Shown: piece by piece, positions 15,937 to 19,870 of the stretch | Numbering within the stretch: the first letter of the stretch is position 1 | Layout: each line of letters opens with the position of its first letter | NCBI GenBank assembly: GCA_001789725.1 | Contig: MGAM01000004.1 | Span: forward strand, 1-51,912 | Direction: 5' to 3' | DNA length: 51,912 bases | Origin: Candidatus Roizmanbacteria bacterium RIFCSPLOWO2_01_FULL_39_19 | GTDB lineage: Bacteria; Patescibacteriota; Microgenomatia; UBA1406; HO2-37-13b | Program-made: the position numbers and the translations under genes | Notes under the pieces: model-generated | The model's input: only the letters and a program-made list of their open reading frames with translations | Told to the model about the DNA's origin: nothing | The model's database searches: none

Positions 15937-17184
15937 TTATCTAGAGATCTTATCAAATCCGACTAAGGGTCGCAGCACTTTCGGAACTTTGATAGATCCA
16001 TCCTTTTGCTGGTAGTTTTCAAGTAATGGAATTAACACACGTGGAGAGGCAACGGCTGTGTTATTTAAACTAAAACAATAATGAGTTTGACCGCCATCCC
16101 CTCTATAGCGGATCTTCAGCCGTCTTGTTTGGAATGTTCCCATTATTGAGTTTGACCCAACTTCTCCATAACCATTTCTCGATGGCATCCAAGCCTCTGT
16201 GTCATATTTGTAAATTTGTGGCTCCCCCATGTCGCTTGTACACATAAACAGAACTCGGTATGGGATTTCCAGTTCGTCAAAAATCTCTTCGGTATTGGCC
16301 TGAAGTTCAGCATGTAACTCTTTTGCCTCCCCTAAATCATCTTTCCCAATTATTACCTGTTCAATTTTCCAAAATTCATGAAGACGGTATAAACCTTTTG
16401 TGTCTTTACCGTATGATCCCGCCTCACGCCGAAAACAGGGAGAGAATGCGACAAACTTTTTGGGCAAGTCTTTTTCGGCAAGCGTTTCATTTGCAAAATA
16501 GCTTGTAACAGCAACCTCGGCAGTGCCAGCTAAATATGAGTCTTCATCATTAAGTTCATAAACCTCACTTTTTCCCCAAGGGAATTGGCCTGACCCAAAC
16601 AAAGAAAAACCTTTAACAATTGATGGAGCAATCAAAGGTATGTAGTCTTTAGCAATTAATTTTTGAAAAGCAAAACTGAGAATTGCAAAGTGAAGTTGGG
16701 CCAATTGCTTTTTCAAGAAATAACCCCTAAAACCTGATACTTTTGACCCTCTCTCAAAGTCGGCCAAATCATGGATTTTGCACAATTCAATATGCGACTT
16801 TGGCGCAAAGTCAAATTCAGGAATTATTCCCTTTTTATATAATTCAACGTTATCTTTCTCATCACGCCCTACTGGAACATCATCAAGTGGAACATTGGGA
16901 ACCTGGCTTAATAATTTCTCAAGTTGAATGTCAATATCAGACAGTTCTGTTTCAAGACGCTGAATGTCATTTTTAAGCTGCTTGCCTTTCTCGATATTTT
17001 CTGAAGTCGGCTTAGTGGAAGCATTTTTGTTTCTTTTTTCCCGAAGGTGCTGGATTTTAGTCATCAACTCCCGCTTCTGCTCGTCAAGTGATAAAATTCC
17101 ATCCAAATCAACATCTCTCCTCTTGTTTTTTGCAGCGGTTGCTACCTTCTCCCTATTATCCCTGATAAACTGAACATCTAACAT
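15937..17184 (-). CDS. serS: Serine--tRNA ligase
   Basis: N-terminal MLDVQFIRDN coiled coil, class II motifs FSPCFRREAGSYGKDTKGLYRLHEFWKIEQ. Confidence 0.97.
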   Translation of the reverse strand: MLDVQFIRDNREKVATAAKNKRRDVDLDGILSLDEQKRELMTKIQHLREKRNKNASTKPTSENIEKGKQLKNDIQRLETELSDIDIQLEKLLSQVPNVPLDDVPVGRDEKDNVELYKKGIIPEFDFAPKSHIELCKIHDLADFERGSKVSGFRGYFLKKQLAQLHFAILSFAFQKLIAKDYIPLIAPSIVKGFSLFGSGQFPWGKSEVYELNDEDSYLAGTAEVAVTSYFANETLAEKDLPKKFVAFSPCFRREAGSYGKDTKGLYRLHEFWKIEQVIIGKDDLGEAKELHAELQANTEEIFDELEIPYRVLFMCTSDMGEPQIYKYDTEAWMPSRNGYGEVGSNSIMGTFQTRRLKIRYRGDGGQTHYCFSLNNTAVASPRVLIPLLENYQQKDGSIKVPKVLRPLVGFDKISR

Positions 17185-17190
17185 AATTAT

Positions 17191-19278
17191 TTAAAGCCCC
17201 AAGTCGTCGTGAATGCTTTTCATGGCGTCTAGGGTAATTTCAACAAAATCATTTAATTTAATTGCCAATTTTTCCTCGCACATTTTAATTTGGTCTCTGT
17301 CAACTGGAGCAGCAAAAGCCTTTTGGGGAAACTTTTTTATAACAGACTCTGCCGTAACCTGTTCTAATTTTCTGTCCGGACGAACTAACGCAACAGCAAC
17401 TATAAATCCGGTTAACTCGTCACAGGTATATAGTGACCACTCCATTTTCGACTCAGGACCCCTAAAGCCATTGTGATGAAAATTGTGTGAAAGAATACAC
17501 TCAATAAGTTCTTGATTGTTCTCACCAGTTTGTTTTATCCATTCAATAGTTTTAGACGTATGTTCTGATGGGTCGCTTTGTGTTTCTTCCCAATCGGCAT
17601 CATGCAGAAGTCCTGCCATTCTCCAGATGACATCACCTTCTCCAAAATGTTTTGCCAGCGCCCCCATTATGGCTTCAACTGCCAGACAATGACGAATTAA
17701 ATTTTTATTTTTAAGATGCTCATTAACAATAGCGAGGGCTTGATTTTGAGTAAGCTTGAGTTTGGATTTCTTGGTAGATTTTGGTATGGTTGTATTTTCT
17801 GGAATTTCTTTATAAATATCATTTTCGTTAATAGGCTTTTCCGGACGAAGTGTTGGGAATAAAATTACTTCCTTTATTGCCCAAGTATTGGTAAAAAACA
17901 TAACTAATCGATCAATTCCTACTCCAATTCCACCTAAGGGGGGTAAACCATATTCCATAGCTGTCAAAAAGTCCTCATCCGCGTGCTGTGCTTCTTCAAA
18001 ATCGATACGAGTCATTTTTTCATCCCGATTAAATCTTGACCTTTGGATTTCTGGGTCAGTAAGCTCACTCCATCCGTCACAGATTTCTCGCCCTCCAATG
18101 TATCCTTCAAATCTCTGCACCCACTCCGGATTATCAGGATGAGCCTTTGATAGGGGGCTGACATCAGCGGGATAGTCGATAATCCATGTAGGTGACACTA
18201 AAGTTTCAGGAATAGAATGTTCAAAGATTTTGAAAATAAGTTGTCCTTTTGTCTCTCCGCCCAAAAGTTCCATATTTTTTTTCTTGCAGTAGTCAAGAAG
18301 CTCTGCCTCAGTCATTTCTATTACGTCAAGTCCCAACTTATCTTTGATTATGTCAACCATTTTTATCCTTGGCCATTGCCCTGATAAATCGATTACGTGC
18401 TTATCAACTTTTATCTTGAGCCCTCCCGCTACTTCTTTTGCAACGTGCTTAAACATTCCCTCGGCCACATCCATCATACGTTGATAATCTGCATATGATT
18501 CATACCACTCAAGCATTGTAAATTCAGGATTATGTGTTCTATCTAATCCCTCATTACGAAATACCTTTCCAATCTCATACACCCTATCATATCCTCCGGC
18601 AATTAACCGTTTTAAATAAAGCTCTGGAGCAATCCGAAGATACATATTGGCATCCAGCGCGTTAAAGTAAGTCTTAAACGGCTTTGCGTTGGCTCCTCCG
18701 TATAAGTGTTGCAGTATTGGAGTCTCAACCTCTAAAAAACCTTGATTGTCAAGAAAACTCCTGACAGCACGGACAACCTTGGCACGAATACCAAATCTCT
18801 TTTTGACGTCATCATTAAGAAGAAGATCAAGATATCTCTGCCTAAACCGAGTCTCAACGTCGCGTATCCCATACCAGGAGTTAGGCAGGGGACGCAGTGA
18901 TTTTGTCAATAATACGTAATCTGAAGGCATAATAGAAACCTCACCGGCAACAGTTTTTGTAACCTCCCCGACTACTCCAACAAAGTCTCCTATGTCAAGT
19001 AGGTCTAGATTGTCAAACTGCTCGTCTCCCAAAATATCTTTTTTGAAGAAGAGTTGGATTTTACCAGTTTCATCTTTAAGGTCAGCAAAAACTATATTCC
19101 CATGGGTTCTTAGAGAAAATATTTTCCCCGCAGTTTTTACACTCCGACCCAGCATTTCAAGCGTCTCAGAAACTGTCTGTTTTTTATCAAACGAAGGTGC
19201 GTATCCGCTGACGCCAAGTAATTGTAGCTTTTTAAGCTTATCCTGCCTTGCTTGAATTAATTGGTCTTCAGTTTTCAT
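17191..19278 (-). CDS. lysS: Lysine--tRNA ligase (class II) fused to a C-terminal HD domain
   Basis: Residues 1-~480 match class II LysRS (YLRIAPELYLKRLIAGGYDRVYEIGKVFRNEG, GIGVGIDRLVM); residues ~505-695 HD-type (LIRHCLAVEAIM...LLHDADWEE...ILSHNFHH). Confidence 0.95.
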   Translation of the reverse strand: MKTEDQLIQARQDKLKKLQLLGVSGYAPSFDKKQTVSETLEMLGRSVKTAGKIFSLRTHGNIVFADLKDETGKIQLFFKKDILGDEQFDNLDLLDIGDFVGVVGEVTKTVAGEVSIMPSDYVLLTKSLRPLPNSWYGIRDVETRFRQRYLDLLLNDDVKKRFGIRAKVVRAVRSFLDNQGFLEVETPILQHLYGGANAKPFKTYFNALDANMYLRIAPELYLKRLIAGGYDRVYEIGKVFRNEGLDRTHNPEFTMLEWYESYADYQRMMDVAEGMFKHVAKEVAGGLKIKVDKHVIDLSGQWPRIKMVDIIKDKLGLDVIEMTEAELLDYCKKKNMELLGGETKGQLIFKIFEHSIPETLVSPTWIIDYPADVSPLSKAHPDNPEWVQRFEGYIGGREICDGWSELTDPEIQRSRFNRDEKMTRIDFEEAQHADEDFLTAMEYGLPPLGGIGVGIDRLVMFFTNTWAIKEVILFPTLRPEKPINENDIYKEIPENTTIPKSTKKSKLKLTQNQALAIVNEHLKNKNLIRHCLAVEAIMGALAKHFGEGDVIWRMAGLLHDADWEETQSDPSEHTSKTIEWIKQTGENNQELIECILSHNFHHNGFRGPESKMEWSLYTCDELTGFIVAVALVRPDRKLEQVTAESVIKKFPQKAFAAPVDRDQIKMCEEKLAIKLNDFVEITLDAMKSIHDDLGL

Positions 19279-19292
19279 AATTTAATAATACT

Positions 19293-19321
19293 AAAAAACC
19301 CCGCGCTTATTTGGCGGGGTT
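19293..19321 (-). terminator. Intrinsic terminator in the lysS leader (attenuator arms 3:4)
   Basis: Minus strand AACCCCGC-CAAATAAGC-GCGGGGTT then T-run, ending 14 nt before lysS ATG. Confidence 0.88.
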
Positions 19322-19348
19322 GATGTTTAACAAAATCTCCCCGCCTGC

Positions 19349-19396
19349 TCAGGCTTTTTTTGAGGAGAATTTTGAAACTATGTTCTTTGTTGTCAT
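19349..19396 (-). CDS. Putative 15-aa leader peptide MTTKNIVSKFSSKKA of the lysS-serS operon
   Basis: ATG 6 nt after TAAAAT (+ coords 19403-19408); 4 Lys and 3 Ser codons; ends at start of pairing region 2 before the terminator. Confidence 0.7.
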   Translation of the reverse strand: MTTKNIVSKFSSKKA

Positions 19397-19405
19397 TGAT
19401 CTATT

Positions 19406-19870
19406 TTACGAAATATTTATTATTTTGTAAACCACGTTCCCGGAGGGGGTTGCAACCTGTACTTCATCTCCCTTTCCCTTGCCTAACACAGCTTTCCCGA
19501 TAGGTGAGTTGGTAGATAATTTTTTGTTTTCAATATCGGCCTCAAGTTCGCCGACAATTTGGTATTCAAGCTTTTGACCATCTCTCTCGAGTATCACGGA
19601 ATCACCTAGGCTTACAAAATTATTATTTGCATCCTTGGCAACGACCTCTGCATTTCTAAGCCTAAGCTCAATCCAAACTATTCTGCTGTCAATAAACCTT
19701 AAGGACTCTTTGGCTGATGTATATTCACTGTTTTCAGATAAGTCGCCCATTTCCCGAGCTTTTTGCAGGCGCGCAACAACTACGGGTCGCTTTACTTCAC
19801 GAAGTTCCTTAAACTCACTGTTTAATTTATCAAACCCCTCTTGTGTGACTTTGAATTTTTTAGCTTTCAT
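19406..19870 (-). CDS. greA: Transcription elongation factor GreA
   Basis: KVTQEGFDKLNSEFKEL, ARLQKAREMGDLSENSEYTSAKE, SPIGKAVLGKGKGDEV. Confidence 0.97.
   Translation of the reverse strand: MKAKKFKVTQEGFDKLNSEFKELREVKRPVVVARLQKAREMGDLSENSEYTSAKESLRFIDSRIVWIELRLRNAEVVAKDANNNFVSLGDSVILERDGQKLEYQIVGELEADIENKKLSTNSPIGKAVLGKGKGDEVQVATPSGNVVYKIINIS

Follow-up and report, generated by a model that had tools for sequence, protein, structure and literature searches.

The lysS–serS operon in the window, the whole stretch of 51,912 nucleotides analysed here, is probably preceded by a ribosome-mediated transcription attenuator of trp/his/pheST logic. The entire element lies at 19293-19396 of the minus strand and comprises a short leader ORF, a 1:2 protector hairpin, a 7-bp 2:3 antiterminator and a 3:4 terminator. 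The genome carrying the window (G000) is represented by 658 kb in 22 contigs, is 77% complete and has a GC content of 38%. The genome collection contains no other species of its genus and seven in its family.

Organization of the lysS–serS locus

The sequence and the coordinates reported for the region between greA and lysS in the initial annotation match ours letter for letter. The features of the locus are the following.

19406..19870, minus strand: greA (Pfam GreA_GreB_N and GreA_GreB), the upstream gene, with its stop codon overlapping the leader -10 box
19426..19431, minus strand: -35-like TTTACA of the predicted promoter P1 (consensus scan; 10/12 overall, 17-nt spacer to TAAAAT)
19403..19408, minus strand: -10-like TAAAAT of the predicted P1, overlapping the greA stop codon
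19349..19396, minus strand: leader ORF MTTKNIVSKFSSKKA followed by TGA, 15 codons, with an alignable leader in the relative G003
19362..19378, minus strand: region 1, 5′ arm of the protector hairpin in the MFE fold, inside the Ser/Lys codons
19325..19346, minus strand: region 2, 3′ arm of the protector, with GGCGGGG (19339-19345) as the antiterminator 5′ arm
19313..19319, minus strand: region 3, CCCCGCC, the antiterminator 3′ arm, overlapping the terminator 5′ arm
19293..19321, minus strand: intrinsic terminator AACCCCGC/GCGGGGTT and T-run (3:4 hairpin and U-run)
19285..19290, minus strand: -10-like TATTAT of the predicted lysS promoter P2, past the terminator and 6 nt ahead of the ATG of lysS
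17191..19278, minus strand: lysS, class II LysRS with a C-terminal HD domain (Pfam tRNA-synt_2, tRNA_anti-codon, HD)
15937..17184, minus strand: serS, seryl-tRNA synthetase (Pfam Seryl_tRNA_N, tRNA-synt_2b), 6 bp after lysS

The leader ATG is separated from lysS by 118 nt. Nine nucleotides lie between the greA stop codon and the leader. The TAAAAT box is located 6 nt before the leader ATG, as the initial annotation had stated. The greA–lysS neighbourhood was found again in many relatives. No second copy of the leader DNA exists in G000, showing that it is not a repeat element. The genome is poor in well-scoring terminators, with only 24 in 653 kb, and the one upstream of lysS is among them. 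Only three places in G000 bring together a leaderless-type short ORF (-10 match of 5/6 or better), a terminator and a gene behind them: lysS, rplC and, on contig C15, an AlaX operon.

Leader codons and RNA pairings

The 15-codon leader contains four Lys and three Ser codons, the numbers given in the initial annotation, and is followed by the genes for the two matching synthetases, as expected of a trp/his/pheST-type attenuator. Seven or more Lys and Ser codons occur in 0.35% of the short ORFs (16 codons or fewer) of G000. Codons 8-13 of MTTKNIVSKFSSKKA, the putative control codons, read Ser-Lys-Phe-Ser-Ser-Lys.

The MFE fold of the 118 nt RNA combines the 1:2 and 3:4 hairpins (-31.5 kcal/mol, z = -3.7), and the pairing of regions 1 and 2 claimed earlier is thus part of it. 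The two other pairings of the initial annotation were also recovered. The match of GGCGGGG to CCCCGCC is perfect, and region 3 doubles as the 5′ arm of the terminator. The 2:3 and 3:4 hairpins share CCCCGC and are mutually exclusive. In isolation the 1:2, 2:3 and 3:4 hairpins have energies of -15.5, -14.9 and -13.9 kcal/mol, respectively. As a control, the terminator was kept and the leader was shuffled by dinucleotides (n = 2000). The antiterminator energy was reached in 3 of the 2000 shuffles and the 1:2 energy in 29; a single shuffle reached both.

The ribosome was mimicked by barring all pairing up to approximately 12 nt beyond the A-site codon. The window RNA folded into the antiterminator when the A site was placed at codons 8-13, and into the terminator when it was placed at codon 14 or the stop codon. 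The 2:3 hairpin therefore competes successfully at equilibrium when region 1 is masked by a stalled ribosome. In the masked folds of the window and of two analogues from other families, G101 and G372, region 2 is exposed by stalling and covered once the ribosome has reached the stop codon. Being equilibrium calculations with an assumed ribosome footprint, these folds support the proposed order of events, not its rates.

Occurrence of the element in other genomes

An alignable element was found after greA in one genome of the same family, G003, whose LysRS is approximately 50% identical to that of the window over 124 residues; the G003 contig ends inside lysS. Here the leader MVLKNVTSKSKSSLM (ATG GTA CTC AAA AAT GTT ACA TCA AAA TCT AAA TCA TCC TTA ATG TAA) contains three Lys and four Ser codons and starts 4 nt after the greA stop codon. 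The three-way pairing is present as well: 1:2 is formed by ACATCAAAA/TTTTGATGT, 2:3 by GGGGTGTTT/AAACGCCCC, and 3:4 by CCCCGC/GCGGGG with a T-run. The alignment of the two elements shows CAAAA/UUUUG and CCCCGC/GCGGGG unchanged; sequence differences occur in the outer pairs of 1:2 and in the extension of the antiterminator, where pairing is preserved. The isolated 2:3 hairpin of G003 (-13.0 kcal/mol) is more stable than its 3:4 hairpin (-11.0 kcal/mol). In the masked folds of G003 the terminator remains the best equilibrium structure wherever the ribosome stalls, so that switching in this genome would need to be kinetic.

We screened 188 lysS-upstream stretches, taken from a sample of one phylum in which some genomes are present twice, with a terminator/leader detector. 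The screen revealed two analogues beyond the window and G003, one in G101 and one in G372, each belonging to another family. Both have Lys-rich leaders before lysS and follow the logic of the window, and their sequences are unrelated to it. The G101 element consists of the leader MQLHTNLKKAAKKQNS, the pairings ATACCAAC/GTTGGTAT and GGAGGT/ACCTCC, and the terminator ACCTCC-TAAAA-GGAGGT-TTTTTT. The G372 element, from the third family, has the leader MQIELLVKRNNKKSLLGG, an antiterminator of -16.2 kcal/mol and a CCCTC/GAGGG terminator, which is followed by approximately 190 nt before lysS. It lacks an upstream greA and has its own TATAAT before the leader. The masked folds of both switch in the same codon range as those of the window. 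Each of the two leaders contains one Ser codon. In G000, G101 and G372, serS and lysS are neighbours or lie close together on one strand; the G101 operon encodes a lysS-DUF2000 fusion, NIF3-like, HD and HAM1-like proteins, and serS, the names other than serS, lysS and HD being judged by eye.

When the four leaders are pooled, 18 of the 24 codons at positions 8-13 specify Lys or Ser, compared with an average of approximately 16% in the short ORFs of G000. The tail probability is about 1e-8 and assumes independence and a codon range fixed in advance, neither of which is strictly true. Counting the three lineages alone gives 12/18 (2e-5).

The initial annotation had made its proposal depend on conservation of the leader and the pairings in relatives. 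Both are present in G003, with analogues in G101 and G372. The element is missing before lysS in most of the 188 stretches, including that of G002 (the genus of G003), in G004, G007 and G079, and in G783, whose LysRS is 75% identical to that of G372, its nearest relative. No further cases were found among the relatives of G372 or those of G101, whose family and order comprise only three genomes. The element is thus sporadic, which may reflect fast turnover, or the analogues may partly be coincidence.

Two candidates were rejected. At locus L169 the detector called a Lys/Ser ORF, and the fold did not contain matching pairings. In G783 (L273) an ORF that begins MIIATVISSSLSLRADGLNLSRR and has several Ser codons lies together with a strong 13-bp hairpin approximately 180 to 20 nt before lysS, and no competing antiterminator accompanies them. 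A separate observation concerns G002: its SerRS (G002:C15:3752-5029) is only 39% identical to that of the window, and those of the other family members are 57-61% identical. It is possible that serS has been replaced in this genome, which is also devoid of the attenuator.

Predicted promoters and probable leaderless mRNAs

Exact TATAAT sequences peak 6-9 nt before the start codons of 582 G000 genes, with 19 at distance 6 compared to approximately one per position farther out. Shine-Dalgarno-like sequences are hardly raised in the same genes (25 versus 16 in the control). For these two reasons leaderless mRNAs are probably common in G000. Both the leader ORF (TAAAAT-N6-ATG) and lysS (TATTAT-N6-ATG) fit this genome-wide pattern. 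The lysS box, P2, had escaped the initial annotation. Its geometry also occurs before lysS in G002, G003 and others, and a -10-like box lies between the terminator and lysS in G003, G101 and G372 as well.

The presence of the predicted P2 after the terminator is the chief weakness of the model in the initial annotation, in which the attenuator was described as complete. The ORF and the pairings hold, and the logic is supported. Full control of lysS–serS is unlikely, since lysS probably has its own leaderless promoter. Because P2 is placed beyond the terminator, the attenuator probably gates an additional, inducible input, derived from P1 and greA readthrough, above a basal lysS promoter, and not all of lysS expression.

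Proposed mechanism and alternative explanations

We propose the following sequence of events, in which promoter activity, stalling, readthrough and the response to Lys or Ser starvation are predictions from the features described above. The predicted 5′ end of the P1 RNA is the leader AUG or a position beside it, so that this RNA would be leaderless; readthrough from greA probably contributes, and the leader AUG would be translated. With ample Lys-tRNA and Ser-tRNA the ribosome would reach the UGA beside region 2 and cover it, the 3:4 terminator would form and transcription would stop. A shortage of either charged tRNA would make the ribosome stall at codons 8-13 and cover region 1; region 2 would then pair with region 3, and RNA polymerase would continue into lysS–serS. 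Without translation, the 1:2 hairpin would protect region 2 and termination would follow. P2 would provide basal lysS mRNA, to which the attenuator would add inducible expression. The contribution of readthrough may be small, given the predicted leaderless lysS promoter after the terminator in all four positive genomes. The readthrough mRNA would offer lysS without a 5′-terminal AUG or a Shine-Dalgarno sequence, which is a point against the model.

The same arrangement could be read as an intrinsic greA terminator of the ordinary kind, with P2 behind it as a separate leaderless promoter of lysS; the short ORF and the additional pairings would then be incidental. Many relatives (L004, L051, L064, L066 and L068) indeed have a plain terminator, then a -10 box and ATG, between greA and lysS with no leader ORF, and the TATTAT-N6-ATG before lysS agrees with the genome-wide leaderless pattern. 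We nevertheless regard this explanation as unlikely. It does not account for antiterminator and protector helices exceeding those of the shuffled leaders, for their recurrence in G003 with compatible pairing, or for the analogous Lys-codon leaders in two unrelated families; moreover, the plain terminators of other genomes come without such a leader. Alternatively, the hairpins might act without amino-acid specificity, the translation of the leader coupling transcription from greA or P1 to the general translation rate or aiding re-initiation, and the richness in Lys and Ser arising from A-rich sequence and pairing constraints. The position of the leader just after the greA stop codon in the window and G003 would suit such coupling, AAA codons come easily in AT-rich DNA, and re-initiation roles for leader ORFs have been argued (PMC4833913). 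The excess of Lys and Ser among the control codons, matching the synthetases encoded downstream, and the G372 element, which stands behind its own TATAAT and not behind greA, make non-specific coupling quite improbable.

A catalogued RNA regulator, such as a T-box or a lysine riboswitch, is highly improbable. Some Firmicutes do control lysS and serS by T-boxes. An Rfam scan of the window at the gathering score returned nothing but tRNAs, and a scan of the four positive loci with E up to 0.5 returned only tRNAs and one spurious miRNA match. Neither a T-box/specifier-loop consensus nor a lysine aptamer (L box) was matched in these scans, and a T-box would not fit into so short a leader. Ribosome-mediated attenuation remains the preferred explanation.

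Comparison with known systems

The classic attenuated aminoacyl-tRNA synthetase operon is E. coli pheST. Classical attenuators have also been predicted before trpS and leuS in Streptomyces (PMC1262725). The element described here shares with these systems a leader rich in the cognate residues, protector, antiterminator and terminator hairpins, a stop codon beside region 2 and a synthetase gene downstream. It differs from them in leader codons for two amino acids that match two synthetases, in a leader predicted to be translated from a leaderless mRNA without a Shine-Dalgarno sequence, in its very short length (118 nt), in the second predicted promoter past the terminator, and in its reduced-genome, probably Patescibacteria-type host. 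Similar to the enterobacterial trp and his attenuators, it has the three-hairpin logic with predicted ribosome stalling on control codons; however, its target is tRNA charging enzymes and not amino-acid biosynthesis, and its control codons are mixed Lys/Ser and not a one-residue run. The physiological input and the kind of target gene are those of the T-box riboswitches of synthetase genes, whereas sensing here would proceed via the translating ribosome and not through direct tRNA binding.

The type of switch is known; the target, the dual sensing and the host lineage look new. Full-text searches of open-access papers found leader-peptide attenuation described neither for the candidate phyla radiation nor for lysS or serS, and this silence is weak evidence of novelty. 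As a tentative generalization, reduced-genome Patescibacteria-type bacteria, which are without most other amino-acid regulation, might tune their tRNA-synthetase operons by repeatedly re-invented leaderless leader-peptide attenuators; in the present case one leader would read both Lys and Ser for an operon that encodes just the two synthetases concerned, and a basal promoter would lie between attenuator and gene. If the attenuation model is true, ribosome-sensing attenuation works in very reduced, largely uncultured bacteria, does so without Shine-Dalgarno initiation, can read two amino acids at once and has evolved repeatedly upstream of one gene. The system would also offer a directly testable handle on how these dependent bacteria sense their amino-acid supply.

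Additional observations

The C-terminal HD domain of the window LysRS (17191-19278) was not recorded in the initial annotation. In G101 and G372 LysRS is fused to a DUF2000-like domain, as judged by eye (L244 3743-5629; L245 3955-5895). A DUF2000 gene is also present in the AlaX operon of G000, which suggests that DUF2000 is connected with the charging or editing of tRNA. This operon is preceded by a second attenuator-like element (L257; contig C15, minus strand 53500-53710), with TATAAT-N6-ATG and the leader MLTQGYIKGINNFFTLLTRGD. Its 1:2, 2:3 and 3:4 hairpins have energies of -11.0, -16.9 and -11.7 kcal/mol, respectively, and are followed by a second terminator in tandem. Downstream are a 95-aa ORF, the DUF2000 gene and the gene of an AlaX-like editing protein; the candidate sensed residues are Asn, Phe, Thr and Leu. 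No such element was found in relatives of AlaX. Outside the window, on the minus strand of contig C4 (63353-63435), the leaderless-type mini-ORF MLKREALTSI (TATAAT-N8-ATG) is accompanied by a terminator-like hairpin 19 nt upstream of an rplC-like gene for ribosomal protein L3.
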